Positions 7,685-22,057 of a DNA stretch of 22,057 nucleotides are shown one piece after another. The stretch lies in IMG/VR virus record IMGVR_UViG_3300006030_000124, positions 1 to 22,057 of that record; one strand, given 5' to 3'. The stretch comes from a virus. Numbering within the stretch: the first letter of the stretch is position 1; every line of letters starts with the position of its first letter. The translations under genes were made by a program, and so were the position numbers. The notes beneath the pieces were generated by a model. It was not told the origin of the DNA and searched no databases. It was given only the letters and a program-made list of their open reading frames with translations.

Positions 7685-7903
7685 TGGCACGACAGAAAGC
7701 GTGGCACGACAGATGGCACGACAAGAAAAAACAGCTAAAAATCCAGCATTTTTCCTATCCTACCGGTCACTTCCAGTCATCCGTAACTACCTACAATAAC
7801 AGCCCAACCAATAATTTTCCCCGGTTTTTTGTGCCATCTATTGCATGGGTGTGCCGATCTATGCCACCATGTGCCAATCAGTTTGGCACGATGGATGGCA
7901 CGG
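7685..7903. other. Putative phage attachment site (attP) with arm-type repeats
   Basis: Three exact copies of TGGCACGACA (7685, 7702, 7714) lie on the left, and TGGCACGA (7884) and TGGCACGG (7896) on the right. Inverted copies of TGGCAC occur at 7831-7836 and 7871-7876, with a variant at 7851. The last two copies on each side are both spaced 12 bp apart. Between them, 7725-7829 is less GC-rich and gene-free. Repeats on both arms of a core next to an integrase gene match the layout of lambda-type attP, where the integrase N-terminal domain binds arm sites. The core crossover sequence cannot be identified without a bacterial attB. An alternative is a repressor operator array for the integrase promoter. 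Confidence 0.6.
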
Positions 7904-9049
7904 ATGCGGAAGAAACACGAGACTAGAAAGGTTCCCCCTGGGGCCCCTGCCCGGGTGCACAGGGGAAAGCACCAGGCCCTCATCCAGGTGGATGGCCGCG
8001 GGGTTTGGTGTGATCTGACAGCCACGGGCCGGGCCCGTGTGGTCAGGCCGGAATGGTACGCCAGCCTCAAGCTGGCCAATGGCCAAACCAAAACAGTCAA
8101 GCTTTGCCGAGACAAGACAGCCGCGGAAATGATGCTGGCCAAGCTACGGACCCGTGAGGACCAAATCCGGGCCGGCTTGGTTTTTCCTGTTTCCGAGTCT
8201 GGGGAAAATTTTTCGGATCTGCTGGAAAGGTTTTGGAAACACCGTGCAAGGAGCAGGTGTACGGCTGTATACCTGAAAAGCGCCCAAGTGAGCTTGAGAA
8301 AAGCCCTTGGCAGTTTGGGGGTGGGCTCGGTGTTGGATATCCGTGGGCTGAGCAAGGCTGCATGGGAGAAATGGGCGGATGAGCCCGTGGGGGGGATGGT
8401 CAAGCACCATCGGAGGGTACAGCTGAAGGTTTTCCTCAAATGGCTCCACCATGAAAACCTGCTGGCCTCAATCCCGGATGTTCCGAAAATAAAAATCACA
8501 TACAAGGAGCTCCGGAGGCCAGCCCGGCGCCATGAGGTGGACCAGCTCCAGAAGGTTGCCCCGTGGCCCCGTGGCATTTTTTATGCCTTGGCCTTTAGCA
8601 CCTTGGCCAGGAGGAATGCCTTGATTGGCTTGAGGCCCGAGGATTTCAACCTTGGGCCAAGCCCATTTGTCATGCTCCGGGCCCACCTAAGCAAGACAGG
8701 CATTGATCAGCAAATACCTTTGCCCCCGCGGCTGGTTCCCCAATTGAAAAAACTGATCAAGGAATGCCGGCCAGGTGGCTGTGTGTTTGATCTCATCAAT
8801 GATGCCAATTTCCACAAGCTACTGGACCATGACCTGGAGCTGGCCGGGATTCCACGGGTAACCACGGAGGGAAAGCTAGTGATCCATTCTTTTCGCCACG
8901 GTGGAGCCACGGAGCTGCTGGAGAAAGGTGTTTCGGTTTTGCTGGTCCAGCGGATGGGCGGTTGGAAAAGTTTGGCCATGCTGTCCAAGCATTACGCCCA
9001 TCTGAGCCCTGTTAGGTCCAGAAAGGAGATTGATTCGGTTTTTGAATAG
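7895..9049 (+). CDS. int: Tyrosine recombinase / phage integrase
   Basis: With the start at 7895 the protein has 384 residues; an upstream frame-open start at 7829 and an ATG at 7904 are alternatives, and none has a good ribosome binding site. It shows an N-terminal arm/DNA-binding segment, a core-binding domain (about 95-190), and a catalytic domain with Arg239 ('LARRNALIGLRPED'), Lys267 ('LSKTG'), His331 and Arg334 ('HSFRHGGAT'), Trp357 in place of the second His (as in many phage integrases), and nucleophile Tyr367 ('KHYAHLS'). All active-site residues are present, so it should be active in site-specific integration and excision. The attP-like repeats overlap its 5' end, as expected if integrase expression is linked to the state of att. 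Confidence 0.9.
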   Translation: MARMRKKHETRKVPPGAPARVHRGKHQALIQVDGRGVWCDLTATGRARVVRPEWYASLKLANGQTKTVKLCRDKTAAEMMLAKLRTREDQIRAGLVFPVSESGENFSDLLERFWKHRARSRCTAVYLKSAQVSLRKALGSLGVGSVLDIRGLSKAAWEKWADEPVGGMVKHHRRVQLKVFLKWLHHENLLASIPDVPKIKITYKELRRPARRHEVDQLQKVAPWPRGIFYALAFSTLARRNALIGLRPEDFNLGPSPFVMLRAHLSKTGIDQQIPLPPRLVPQLKKLIKECRPGGCVFDLINDANFHKLLDHDLELAGIPRVTTEGKLVIHSFRHGGATELLEKGVSVLLVQRMGGWKSLAMLSKHYAHLSPVRSRKEIDSVFE

Positions 9050-13078: not shown

Positions 13079-13101
13079 CTTGGGGCGTTGGGAGGATGAG
13101 G

Positions 13102-15198
13102 ATGGAAAACAGTTTTTTGGATGCTGCCCTGGCATATGCCGCCCAAGGTTTCCGGGTGTTTCCCTGCCGCCCAGGCCGGAAGCTGCCCGCCACCAATAAT
13201 GGCCGGAATGATGCCACCACGGATGAGGACCAGATCCGGGCCTGGTGGGAGGCCACACCCACGGCAAACATCGGGCTGGTTACGGATGGCCTGGTGGTGG
13301 TGGATGTGGATGGTGGGGACAATGACTGGCCCACCAATCCGGAGCTGGCCGCGGATCTGTGCAATGCCCCAACATCCGCCACCCCGAGCGGTGGCCGGCA
13401 CCATGTGTACCGGCAACCGGCTGGCCGGGAGTACCGGAGCACAGCCGGGCGACTGGCGGAGAAAGTGGACACCCGGGCCAATGGTGGGTACATCGTGGCC
13501 CCGCCCAGCACCCTGGAGGATGGGAAATCCTACCAGTGGATAGACGGGCTGGAGCTGGAGCCCCTGGACCGGTTGCCGGAGCCCCCGGCATGGCTGGTGC
13601 AAATGCTGGATGCCCTGGCCCAGGGCCGCGGGCCGGGTGCCATGCCACAGGGGCCCATCATTGGGGATTCCAACCCCATTCCGGATGGCCAACGGAACTA
13701 CACCCTGGCACGGTTGGCCGGCACCATGCGGCGGGCTGGCATGAGCCGGGGGGAAATCTCCAGCGCCTTGCACCGGGCCAACCAGGATAGGTGCTGCCCG
13801 CCCCTTTGTGAGTCTGAGGTGGAGCGGATTGCTGACAGCATTTCCCGCTATGAGCCGGACCAGATCACCGTGGCCCTGGTGGAAAACCACTGGGGGCAGA
13901 TGGCTGAGGAGCTCCCGGACAATATCGGGCCCATTGATCCGGGGCCATTCCCGGGCCATCTGCTGGAGGTGCCTGGGCTGATCGGCTCAGCCTGTGAGTA
14001 CATGCTGGCCAGCAGTCACCGGCCCCAGCCCATCTTGAGCCTCGGGGCATCCCTGGGCCTGCTGTCCGTGATCACGGGCCGGCGGGTGATGGATGAGATC
14101 GGCACCAGGCCCAACCTGTACGGGCTCGGGGTGGCGCCATCCGGGGCCGGCAAAGAAGCCCCGCGGTCTGCTGTCAAGGAAATCCTCTGGCAGGCTGGTG
14201 CCGGGGCCATGCTGGGGGAGAGCATTGCCAGCCATTCCGGATTGGTCACACACACGGGCCAACAGCCCAGCATGATCTGGCTCATTGATGAGATTGGCCG
14301 GTGGCTCCGGGGGATTTCCACAGCAGGGGACAAGGCCCCACATCTGGCCGGCATTGTGACCAATTTCATGAAATTTTACACGAGCTCCCATTCTGTCTAT
14401 CTGGGGGATGCCTACGCGGATGTGAGCAAGCGGGTGGAGATTCACCAGCCCAATGTGGTGGTGTTTGGCACCACGGTGCCGGAGAGCCTGTACCAGGGCC
14501 TCACCGCGGACAGCGTGGCGGACGGGTTTCTGTCCAGGGTGCTGATCTGGGAAGGGCCCAACACCAGGCCCCGCAAGCGCAAGCCCAAGGTGATGAGCCC
14601 ACCAGCCGACCTGGTGGACCTGGTCCGGATGTGGTGCAACTGGACACCCGGCACGGGCAACCTGGCGGGCCAGCACCCCCGGCCCATGGTAATCCCAAGC
14701 ACCCGGGAGGCCGGGCTTATCCTGGATGAGTTTGATGAGAAGTGTGACAAGGCCCAAGACCAGGAGGATGGCCAGCTAGCCACCCTGTGGAGCCGGGCCG
14801 CGGAGAAGGCCCGCAAGCTGGCCTTGCTGTACACCTGCTCCAAGATCTTGCCGGGTGAGGCTGGTCAGATTGATGCCGAGGCTGCCAATTGGGCAACCGA
14901 GCTGGCCGGCTATCTCACCCAACGGCTCATTTATCTGAGTTACCAATGGGTGGCGGATGGGGCATTTGACGGGCGCCGGAAACGGGTGCTCCGGGCCATC
15001 CAAGAATCGGGCAAGCACGGGCTCACGGGCAGTGAGCTGTGCCGGAAAACCCAATCACTCAGCCCGCGGGAACGGGCGGAGGTGCTGGAGGCCCTGCTCC
15101 AGTCTGGGGAGATCCGGTCTGAATTGAGCGGTGGATTGAAGGCAAAGCGGAAGGCCTTGAAGTATTTCCACCACGGAAACACGGGGAAAAACCCATAA
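13102..15198 (+). CDS. Bifunctional prim-pol / DUF3987-like helicase domain protein
   Basis: The 698-residue start at 13102 is chosen over the ATG at 13096 because GGAGG (13091-13095) is six bases away. Residues about 5-160 form a prim-pol (AEP) domain: 'ALAYAAQGFRVFPCRPG', catalytic Asp68 and Asp70 in 'VVDVDGGD', and His100 in 'SGGRHHVY'. A connector follows. Then comes a P-loop domain of the DUF3987 type with Walker A-like 'APSGAGKE' (about 345-352) and Walker B 'MIWLIDEIG' (about 391-399). The C-terminal 60 residues look like a winged helix ('HGLTGSELCRKTQSLSPRERAEVLEALLQSGEI'). It should prime and unwind DNA at the phage origin. The AT-rich inverted iterons begin within its stop codon. 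Confidence 0.85.
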   Translation: MENSFLDAALAYAAQGFRVFPCRPGRKLPATNNGRNDATTDEDQIRAWWEATPTANIGLVTDGLVVVDVDGGDNDWPTNPELAADLCNAPTSATPSGGRHHVYRQPAGREYRSTAGRLAEKVDTRANGGYIVAPPSTLEDGKSYQWIDGLELEPLDRLPEPPAWLVQMLDALAQGRGPGAMPQGPIIGDSNPIPDGQRNYTLARLAGTMRRAGMSRGEISSALHRANQDRCCPPLCESEVERIADSISRYEPDQITVALVENHWGQMAEELPDNIGPIDPGPFPGHLLEVPGLIGSACEYMLASSHRPQPILSLGASLGLLSVITGRRVMDEIGTRPNLYGLGVAPSGAGKEAPRSAVKEILWQAGAGAMLGESIASHSGLVTHTGQQPSMIWLIDEIGRWLRGISTAGDKAPHLAGIVTNFMKFYTSSHSVYLGDAYADVSKRVEIHQPNVVVFGTTVPESLYQGLTADSVADGFLSRVLIWEGPNTRPRKRKPKVMSPPADLVDLVRMWCNWTPGTGNLAGQHPRPMVIPSTREAGLILDEFDEKCDKAQDQEDGQLATLWSRAAEKARKLALLYTCSKILPGEAGQIDAEAANWATELAGYLTQRLIYLSYQWVADGAFDGRRKRVLRAIQESGKHGLTGSELCRKTQSLSPRERAEVLEALLQSGEIRSELSGGLKAKRKALKYFHHGNTGKNP

Positions 15199-15316
15199 AT
15201 TCAAAAATTCAATAATTCATGTAAGCCTTTAGATATTAACCAAAGGAAACCGGAGAGAGACTGTGAAAACCTAAAGAGAAAGAACATGGAATGAATTATT
15301 GAATTATTGAATTTAT
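15195..15316. repeat. Long inverted iteron array, candidate replication origin
   Basis: Bases 15195-15220 and 15291-15316 form a 26-base inverted repeat with one A·A mismatch (15205/15306), separated by a 70-base spacer. The right arm contains three tandem units TGAATTAT, TGAATTAT, TGAATTTAT; the left arm has their complements. The spacer is purine-rich on the + strand, and the right side continues into a T/A tract (about 15312-15334). The gene-free stretch 15199-15343 stands out as AT-rich in a GC-rich genome and lies directly after the primase-helicase. This is the usual composition of an iteron origin with an unwinding element. A sigma-gene operator is an alternative. Confidence 0.65.
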
Positions 15317-15343
15317 TATTTTTATTATCTATTTACACGGAGT

Positions 15344-15913
15344 ATGGGGAAGATGGGGGAACCAGTTAGGCTCACGGAAAGCCAGAAAAAGCTTGCCGAG
15401 GATAATTACAGATTGGCCCTTAAATTTGCCAACAGCAAGAATCCACCCAATGGCATGGATATGGATGAGTGGGTATCTGAATGCTTTTACAACCTAGTTA
15501 AAGCTGCCGCGGGATATGATCCGGCCCGGTCACGGTTTGCCACCTATGCCTGGCGCTCCATGCTGAATGGCTGGTGTGCGGTGTATCGGTTGAAAAAGCA
15601 GATCAAGGCCGGGGGCAGCATGACGCAGGCTGGGGACTCATTCAGCCTGGATGAAATCCGGGACCATCGGCCCCAGGAGCCCACGCCTCTGGAACAAGAG
15701 GAGGCCAGCCAGACCATGGCCGGGGTGGATGGGCTGGTGAGGGCCCTGCCCGCGGATCTCCGGCTGTACATGCGCCAAAGGATCAATGGCCTCAGTTTTG
15801 GGGATATGTCCAAAAAATGGGGCATTAGCCGGCAAGCCCTCCAGCAACGGGCCGGCCATGCCAGGGCGGCCATGCTGGCCATTGCCCGGGCCCGCGGGAT
15901 CAAGCTGGGCTGA
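15344..15913 (+). CDS. Sigma-70-like factor, first of a tandem pair
   Basis: The 189-residue product has a region-2-like block ('DEWVSECFYNLVKAAAGYDPARSRFATYAWRSML' in two parts, residues about 42-75) that corresponds to the core-binding/-10 helix of sigma-70 factors. A region-4-like HTH lies near the C-terminus ('LSFGDMSKKWGISRQALQQR', about 147-170). There is no region 3 or 1.1. It shares a block with the next gene of the form GMDxxEWxSECxYxL...FxTYAxR....GWC, so the two are paralogues. GGAG at 15339-15342 fits a start at the ATG 15353 (ten bases) better than 15344. It likely redirects host RNA polymerase to phage promoters. The AT-rich iteron region is immediately upstream. Confidence 0.75.
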   Translation: MGKMGEPVRLTESQKKLAEDNYRLALKFANSKNPPNGMDMDEWVSECFYNLVKAAAGYDPARSRFATYAWRSMLNGWCAVYRLKKQIKAGGSMTQAGDSFSLDEIRDHRPQEPTPLEQEEASQTMAGVDGLVRALPADLRLYMRQRINGLSFGDMSKKWGISRQALQQRAGHARAAMLAIARARGIKLG

Positions 15914-15953: not shown

Positions 15954-16496
15954 ATGAGCACCAGAAAACTGACACCAGAACAGCAAGAGCTAGTCACGGC
16001 CAACATGGCCCTGGCGTTTGACTACGCACGGAAAAACAGCCCTCCGGGTGGCATGGATTTCCAGGAATGGGAATCGGAGTGCCTGTACAAGCTGTGCATT
16101 GCGGCCAGCACCTACAGGCCTGAGCTGGGCTGGGCATTCACCACCTATGCGGTTAGATGCCTATCTACTGGGTGGTGCACGGTCCAGCATCACATGACCA
16201 GGGAAATGCGGGACTACCGGCGGCACAGCCGCATGGGTGACCTGGACATCCTGGTGGTGGATCAGCGCCGGGCGGATACATCCGACGATGTCAAAGCCCA
16301 ATTGAATGCCCTGCTGGCCAGGTTGCCGGAGCGTGAGCGCCTGGTGCTGCAAGGCCGGGCCGGTGGGAAGATTCTCACCGAGATTGGCAAGGAGCTGGGG
16401 ATCACCCGGGAACGGGTGCGGCAGATTCAGGAGCGGGCCCTCACCAGGCTGTGGAGGCATGTGAGGATTGAGGGGCTGGAATATGCGGGGGATTGA
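15954..16496 (+). CDS. Sigma-70-like factor, second of a tandem pair
   Basis: The 180-residue product starts at the ATG at 15954 after GGGGGTGAGG; the frame is open further upstream but overlaps the previous gene. Region 2 is seen at about residues 33-70 ('GMDFQEWESECLYKL', 'FTTYAVRCLSTGWC'). A well-formed region 4 lies near the C-terminus ('LPERERLVLQGRAGGKILTEIG', then 'LGITRERVRQIQERALTRLW'), a textbook sigma-70 HTH. The region 4 is closer to consensus than that of its upstream paralogue. It probably directs RNA polymerase to a phage promoter class. Its stop is one base before the next start codon. Confidence 0.8.
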   Translation: MSTRKLTPEQQELVTANMALAFDYARKNSPPGGMDFQEWESECLYKLCIAASTYRPELGWAFTTYAVRCLSTGWCTVQHHMTREMRDYRRHSRMGDLDILVVDQRRADTSDDVKAQLNALLARLPERERLVLQGRAGGKILTEIGKELGITRERVRQIQERALTRLWRHVRIEGLEYAGD

Positions 16497-20941: not shown

Positions 20942-22057
20942 ATGCGAGATCTGCTGTCGATTGGCACCAGCCGGGGGTGTGAGATGATTGGTACGGGTTT
21001 GGGTCTAGGTTTGGCTGGTTACAGGATTAATCCGGCAGGTGTTTTGCCGGTTCTGGATATTAACTTTCGCGACTTCAAGACTTTTTCCAGCGCCATTGGA
21101 CCGACCGCCAGTTTTTCCCGTGCATCATCTGGCACCTACTTTGATGAAACGGGTGTACTCCGCACGGCATCCACAAATGTTGGCCGGATTAACCATGTTT
21201 ACAACGGCAGTACCTGGGTGTGCAAAGGCGGGTTGATTGAGGAACAGAGGACAAATCTTGCAAATTACAGCGAAGATTTCACGGTATCAACAGCCGGAAA
21301 TTGGAACGATAATTCCAACTTGACCATTACTGCCAACCAGGGAACGGCACCAGATAACTCGGCAACAGCCGATTTAGTGAGGCCTACAGCATCTGGATAC
21401 AACGCCCTTGGGACATCTGGAAAAGCCGTCTCATTGCCTAACAGTGGGACGGTTTCAATTTACGCAAAAGCTTCAGGAAAAAATTGGCTCAAGATGTGGG
21501 ACGCAAATGGCTTTTACCCATCATGGTTTAATCTTGCTACCGGCACATTGGGAACTGTTTCTTCCGGTTTTACAGCTTTAATCCAAAATGTAGGTAATGG
21601 GTGGTATCGCTGCTCGGTTTCAAGGACTTTGGTTGGTGGCAATGCCTATTTGTATTTTGGCGTTTCTGATGCTGATAACTCTACATCAGCTTCAGCTTCA
21701 GGGACGGACGGAATACTAGTTTGGGGAGCGCAGTTGGAAACTGGTTCATTTCCCACTAGCTACATCCCCACCACCTCCGCATCAGCCACACGAAGCGCCG
21801 ATGTGATGCAAATTACCGGCAGCAATTTTAGCGGCTTCTACAACGCAAGCGAAGGAAGCGTTTGTTTTGAAGGTGATTCAAACGGTTCAACTACTGCATC
21901 TGACACTTACTTTCTAATTTGCTCCGATGGCTCGACGTTTAATAATGCAGCGCCTTTTATTTTTTCAAGCGGTTCATCAAACAGCTTGCGCCACAGATTG
22001 AGAGCCGGTGGTTCTGACATTTTCAACATCACAACATCGGAGCAGTTGGCAAGAAAT
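20942..22057 (+). CDS. Putative tail/spike fibre, receptor-binding protein (3' end cut by window)
   Basis: The frame is open from the ATG at 20942 to the last base, at least 372 codons; an ATG at 20984 after GGGGGTGTGAG is an alternative start. The N-terminal half has motifs common in phage adsorption proteins: 'PTASFSRASSGTYFDETGVLRTA' (in part), 'GLIEEQRTNLANYSEDF', 'NGWYRCSVS', and 'WGAQLETGSFPTSYIPTT.SA.ATRSAD'. These belong to carbohydrate-binding/LamG-like jelly-roll modules of tail fibres. A second beta module begins near residue 300. The DNA is clearly less GC-rich than the rest of the window, as often seen for exchanged host-recognition modules. Its C-terminus, which would show any tip or enzymatic domain, lies outside the window. 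Confidence 0.75.
   Translation, partial: MRDLLSIGTSRGCEMIGTGLGLGLAGYRINPAGVLPVLDINFRDFKTFSSAIGPTASFSRASSGTYFDETGVLRTASTNVGRINHVYNGSTWVCKGGLIEEQRTNLANYSEDFTVSTAGNWNDNSNLTITANQGTAPDNSATADLVRPTASGYNALGTSGKAVSLPNSGTVSIYAKASGKNWLKMWDANGFYPSWFNLATGTLGTVSSGFTALIQNVGNGWYRCSVSRTLVGGNAYLYFGVSDADNSTSASASGTDGILVWGAQLETGSFPTSYIPTTSASATRSADVMQITGSNFSGFYNASEGSVCFEGDSNGSTTASDTYFLICSDGSTFNNAAPFIFSSGSSNSLRHRLRAGGSDIFNITTSEQLARN

Follow-up and report, generated by a model that had tools for sequence, protein, structure and literature searches.

Does the inverted repeat that follows the primase-helicase gene of this phage mark the place where its replication starts, and if so, which protein reads it? Such phages seldom have a known start of replication, and the helicase part of the gene product, DUF3987, still carries the label of a domain of unknown function. 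The stretch of DNA analysed here (the window) comes from IMG/VR and is 22,057 bases long, a fragment that forms its own whole record. It encodes an integrase (7829-9049), a 700-aa Prim-Pol/PriCT_1/DUF3987 primase-helicase with an MCM/E1-like AAA+ part (13096..15198, + strand; assigned from Pfam, from PHROGs as a DNA primase, and from an AF2 model with Foldseek), two tandem sigma-like genes (15344-15913 and 15963-16496; Pfam) and a tail protein (20942-22057; PHROGs). Pfam and PHROGs also identify a Sak4-like annealing protein, a DUF669/SSB-like protein, a PAPS-reductase-like protein and a sliding clamp, and the N-terminal domain of the primase matches the PF09250 Prim-Pol in Pfam at 3e-42. A search for DNA-level relatives of the window among named phages found none. 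The repeat separates the primase gene from the first sigma gene, and we consider it likely that this feature is the replication origin of an integrase-bearing tailed phage and that its initiator is the prim-pol/AAA+ helicase which the phage itself encodes just upstream.

The inverted repeat and its close relatives

The repeat consists of two 26-bp arms separated by a 70-base purine-rich spacer, directly after the prim-pol/helicase gene, and 25 of the 26 positions are complementary (96% reverse complement with one mismatch on recounting), so that its description in the sequence-only reading was accurate to the base. No inverted repeat of the window ranks above this arm pair, which is far above chance, with an inverted-repeat score of 22 in the 300 bases 3' of the primase stop against a shuffle maximum of 10. 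The left array (15195..15220, - strand) is built from three 8-bp units, TGAATTAT TGAATTTT TGAATTTA, and overlaps the primase stop codon (15196-15198), and the right array (15291..15316, + strand) is built from TGAATTAT TGAATTAT TGAATTTA. The earlier count of three TGAATTAT iterons per arm holds provided that degenerate units are included; exact TGAATTAT occurs four times in the 22 kb, three of them within this repeat. The left units lie on the minus strand and the right ones on the plus strand, so that both rows are directed outward from the spacer.

The spacer (15221..15290), the sequence of which is not conserved, is 70% purine on the + strand and 39% G+C, and its A+T content of 61% compares with 41% for the contig as a whole; the richest A+T stretch is found beside the right array and not between the arrays. 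Positions 15280-15329, which cover and follow the right array, are 84% A+T. The 30 bases beyond the right array are 80% A+T, likewise in L004 and L005, while in L006 the A+T run is further from the array and reads (TA)n. Judged by its composition, the A+T-rich stretch adjoining the right array (15309..15335) is a candidate unwinding element. In five distant loci (L025, L045, L046, L047 and L054) the bases that follow the right array start with TATCTCTC, possibly a melting or priming element. No intrinsic terminator was found at the repeat region, and no Rfam family matched there.

Searches of IMG/VR with the primase identified L004 and L005, which are 85% identical, and L006, at about 66-67%. 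Conservation of the iterons in relatives had been proposed as a check on the origin reading, and the outcome was strongly positive: opposed TGAATTAT-type arrays occupy the equivalent place in all three of these close relatives, whose contigs lack TGAATTATTGAA elsewhere. When the gaps were aligned, most of the clustered invariant columns fell in the arrays and the spacer had diverged. What varies among the relatives is the spacer, the strength of the hairpin and the downstream genes; the arrays persist.

These comparisons bear on whether the arms act as a stem-loop, either a DNA cruciform or an RNA hairpin, or whether proteins bind them as rows of iterons. A stem-loop role has been proposed for the plasmid pRN1, which requires a 100-bp stem-loop located 54 bp after its prim-pol/helicase gene (PMC4234260), and the single strand of the window folds far better than its shuffles (z -3.74 as RNA and -4.06 as DNA). 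Folding is, however, near background in L004, L005 and L035 (z 0.14, -0.99 and -1.30), so it is the 8-bp units that are conserved and not the stem. The arms are also built from direct repeats, and rows in the same orientation are additionally present at many distant loci. We therefore rejected the hairpin as a conserved feature, since strong folding is limited to the window and the units persist without a stem, and we regard a stem-loop function as quite improbable.

The repeats might instead be an operator for a phage regulator of the downstream sigma genes, and no origin. A weak promoter-like sequence match (TTGAAT, 18, TATTAT; 15299..15328, + strand) overlaps the right array and could have a secondary role in sigma-gene expression, and the gene next to the primase is sigma-like in both the window and L006. 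On the other hand, promoter-like matches are no more frequent than expected by chance (two found versus 1.0 expected), and the arrays keep their place after the primase although the gene that follows varies: it is a small ORF in L004 and L005, an HTH-type ORF in L025 and, by reading, a ParB-like ORF in L026 and L038 and a nuclease-like ORF in L035. Control of the sigma operon, which the sequence-only reading had offered as a further function, is hence not the main function of the site, because the arrays follow the primase when its neighbour changes; it would be a secondary role at most, and an operator in place of an origin is very improbable. The two sigma-like genes have a 45-base stretch in common (76% identity), and one matches mainly sigma region 2 and the other mainly region 4; they are apparently a duplication. 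No relatives were found when IMG/VR was searched with the sigma protein.

Arrays behind distant prim-pol/DUF3987 genes

We also scanned IMG/VR with the DNA pattern only, ignoring protein, and obtained seven stretches. Two were relatives that were already known. The matches in L030 and L031, which have identical sequence, lie directly 3' of a distant, unrelated Prim-Pol/PriCT_2/DUF3987 gene, the match in L027 follows a gene that is DUF3987-type by reading alone, and those in L032 and L033 lie at sites that lack a prim-pol. In L032 (4608-4697) and L033 (4661-4750) a DNA-polymerase-like gene adjoins a long, almost perfect hairpin, which the same TTCAATAATTCA/TGAATTATTGAA pair closes; GTTACGCAAA repeats are close by.

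A planctomycete set was drawn from the phylum of L025 (a Planctomycetaceae MAG); a relative was present in 92 of its 392 genomes. At these loci opposed arrays recur right 3' of the stop codon in sequences that differ from those of the window, with iterons that include CAATAGGT, GCGCAATAAGGG, AATAATCGT, TGAAAGAAG, GGTGAAAGG, TTGACGGAT and GGACAGAAT, among others. Arrays were scored as 9-mers (one mismatch) present in both orientations and compared with 25 dinucleotide shuffles per region. Downstream of prim-pol/DUF3987, 33 of 60 regions beat all 25 shuffles, which is an underestimate since this test misses short degenerate arrays; the window itself scored only 5, a value reached by 2 of its 25 shuffles. 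None of the 58 upstream regions beat all shuffles, and after other ORFs of the same loci 11 of 326 did so, as many as chance would give. For two IMG/VR families, the downstream regions that beat their shuffles numbered 52 of 66 and 30 of 54. The loops of clear array pairs span 43-91 bases.

Many loci have a third iteron row beyond a G+C-rich hairpin. The layout 3' of the primase in L043, L061, L063, L080, L085 and L088 is forward iterons, an A+T stretch, reverse iterons, a G+C-rich hairpin of ~50-60 bases and then forward iterons again. A second conserved element, roughly GGGAACAGnCnCCnTTnnnnACACAGTTTGTTT, is found 100-200 bases past the arrays and just before the next gene in many planctomycete loci, for example at about 8335-8395 in L025 and about 8420-8460 in L026, and also in L036, L037, L038, L041, L072 and L079; it is absent from the window.

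The winged helix as candidate reader

The sequence-only reading had suggested that the C-terminal winged helix of the primase-helicase opens the origin. The AF2 model (40-sequence alignment, mean pLDDT 89, pTM 0.63) predicts a winged helix at residues 623-692, encoded by 14962..15171 (+ strand), with helices at 623-637, 645-651 and 657-670 and strands at 673-678 and 687-692. Foldseek matched the N-terminus to the prim-pols of pRN1 ORF904 and NrS-1 and the middle part to the hexameric helicases MCM and papillomavirus E1, in both cases with modest TM-scores, and a profile search with the alignment found ORF904 at 8e-7 and, weakly, the RPC39 winged helix at 0.005. Between the window and L006 the predicted winged helix is 84-88% identical, compared with 72% for the prim-pol and 59% for the AAA+ part.

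If the winged helix reads the iterons, the likeness of iterons should track the winged helix and not the core, and partial Mantel tests agree. In the L030 family (49 loci) the correlation was 0.564 (p 0.0005) for the winged helix given the core and -0.027 (p 0.59) for the core given the winged helix, where the permutations take loci as exchangeable and kinship is thus controlled solely through the core. The corresponding values were 0.365 (p 0.0005) and 0.160 (p 0.04) in the L061 family (66 loci), and 0.187 (p 0.001) and 0.048 (p 0.06) in the planctomycete set (41 loci), where the covariation is weaker and, below 45% core identity, marginal (p 0.05). Helix and iteron pairs in the L030 family include SRNALVRKTQ with ACGTCAAT, SRSDVTRRSQ with TTCAATAATTCA, SRSAFVRKTQ with TCTTCAAC and TRTKLIEKTH with GGTTATTC. 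Based on these comparisons, iteron sequence tracks the predicted winged helix of the primase and not its helicase core. The proposal that the winged helix is the iteron reader has consequently gained indirect support, from the predicted fold, from raised conservation of this domain beside conserved iterons and from the covariation.

The origin might also be read by another protein, such as a host DnaA-like factor or another phage protein, with the prim-pol recruited later. The same iterons in L032 and L033 without a prim-pol at the site would fit this, as would the finding that GTGAAAG-type iterons can be common to unlike winged helices. Nevertheless, it is hard to explain otherwise why iterons should track the primase's own winged helix after control for the core, and we judge a different reader to be highly improbable.

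Proposed mechanism and comparison with known replicons

The conserved place of the arrays, their link to the primase and the covariation with the predicted winged helix all argue for the phage-origin reading of the iterons. Like iteron origins in general, the locus has repeated candidate initiator sites by an A+T-rich stretch, adjoining the putative initiator gene. Cumulative GC skew, another of the proposed checks, gave no support: neither the window nor two relatives have an inflection at the repeat, and the curve tracks the one-way gene order. Given the covariation and the predicted fold, the C-terminal winged helices of successive subunits would bind the 8-bp iterons, with one array for each orientation. 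The geometry of the arrays and the MCM/E1-like fold suggest that the opposed arrays would then nucleate two oppositely oriented helicase rings, so that two opposed helicases are probably loaded there. The A+T-rich stretch beside the right array, judging from its composition, may melt first, and from known prim-pol biochemistry the prim-pol domain would prime, with replication proceeding outward, probably both ways.

By analogy, the window would work like the Rep-ori of PICI/SaPI satellites, the alpha protein of phage P4 and the pRN1 replicon, yet it departs from one defining feature of each. As in PICI/SaPI Rep-ori (PMC6092414), the origin would lie directly 3' of the initiator gene, where the left array in the window overlaps the stop codon, and there are two iteron sets with an A+T-rich stretch and a helicase-type initiator with a C-terminal DNA-binding domain, which is predicted in the window. 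In the related SCCmec protein Cch2, the C-terminal domain binds repeats downstream of its own gene (PMC7581432). However, PICI/SaPI are satellites without virion genes of their own, whereas the window has tail (20942-22057) and integrase genes; its initiator would be a Prim-Pol/DUF3987 fusion; and the PICI/SaPI iteron sets flank the A+T-rich region, which in the window is richest beside the arrays. The alpha protein of P4, on which this comparison rests rather than on the ori and crr sites, likewise unites primase, helicase and an iteron-binding winged helix (predicted in the window) in one polypeptide (PMC4234260), but its primase is of the TOPRIM (DnaG-like) type and that of the window is an archaeo-eukaryotic-type PF09250 Prim-Pol.

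ORF904 of pRN1 also combines an archaeo-eukaryotic-type prim-pol, a ring helicase and a C-terminal winged helix (the window's being predicted), and its arm-loop-arm, with a 21-nt stem and a 58-nt loop, resembles the 26 and 70 of the window (PMC4234260). In contrast, pRN1 is described as iteron-free and stem-dependent, whereas the relatives of the window keep the iterons and not the stem, and the pRN1 helicase is of the SF3 type, while that of the window is DUF3987 by family with a fold closest to MCM/E1. What distinguishes the window from these replicons is its primase of the archaeo-eukaryotic type, joined to an MCM/E1-like helicase and found in an integrase-bearing tailed phage.

We lean somewhat towards the broader view that these loci form a large and hitherto unrecognised class of replicons in phages and prophages, in which the fused prim-pol/DUF3987 helicase is a self-loading double-ring initiator with arrays directly 3' and a readable winged-helix/iteron code; this novelty was judged against the open-licence literature, and the class may already have been described elsewhere. 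The origin layout that has been called unique to PICI satellites would in this way also apply to phages and prophages. A candidate origin could be sought by the simple rule of looking directly 3' of the prim-pol/DUF3987 stop codon, with the primase-helicase named as its likely reader, and the loci offer many naturally matched protein-DNA pairs for winged-helix specificity. If true, the recognition code would make origin-compatibility groups readable from sequence.

The array-after-primase rule is not universal, since the shuffle test detected no iteron arrays in the 350 bases that follow seven DUF3987-type primases of named phages. The authors of the pRN1 study proposed a similar stem-loop for Bordetella phages, with BPP-1 as kin (PMC4234260), and no iteron arrays were found after the primase-helicase gene of BPP-1. 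Loktanella phage pCB2051-A (L069), one of the seven named phages without arrays by the shuffle test, has two paired arms of 38 bases around a 70-base loop in the 200 bases after its primase, where iterons are not obvious, and thus there may be a true stem-loop version within this primase family.
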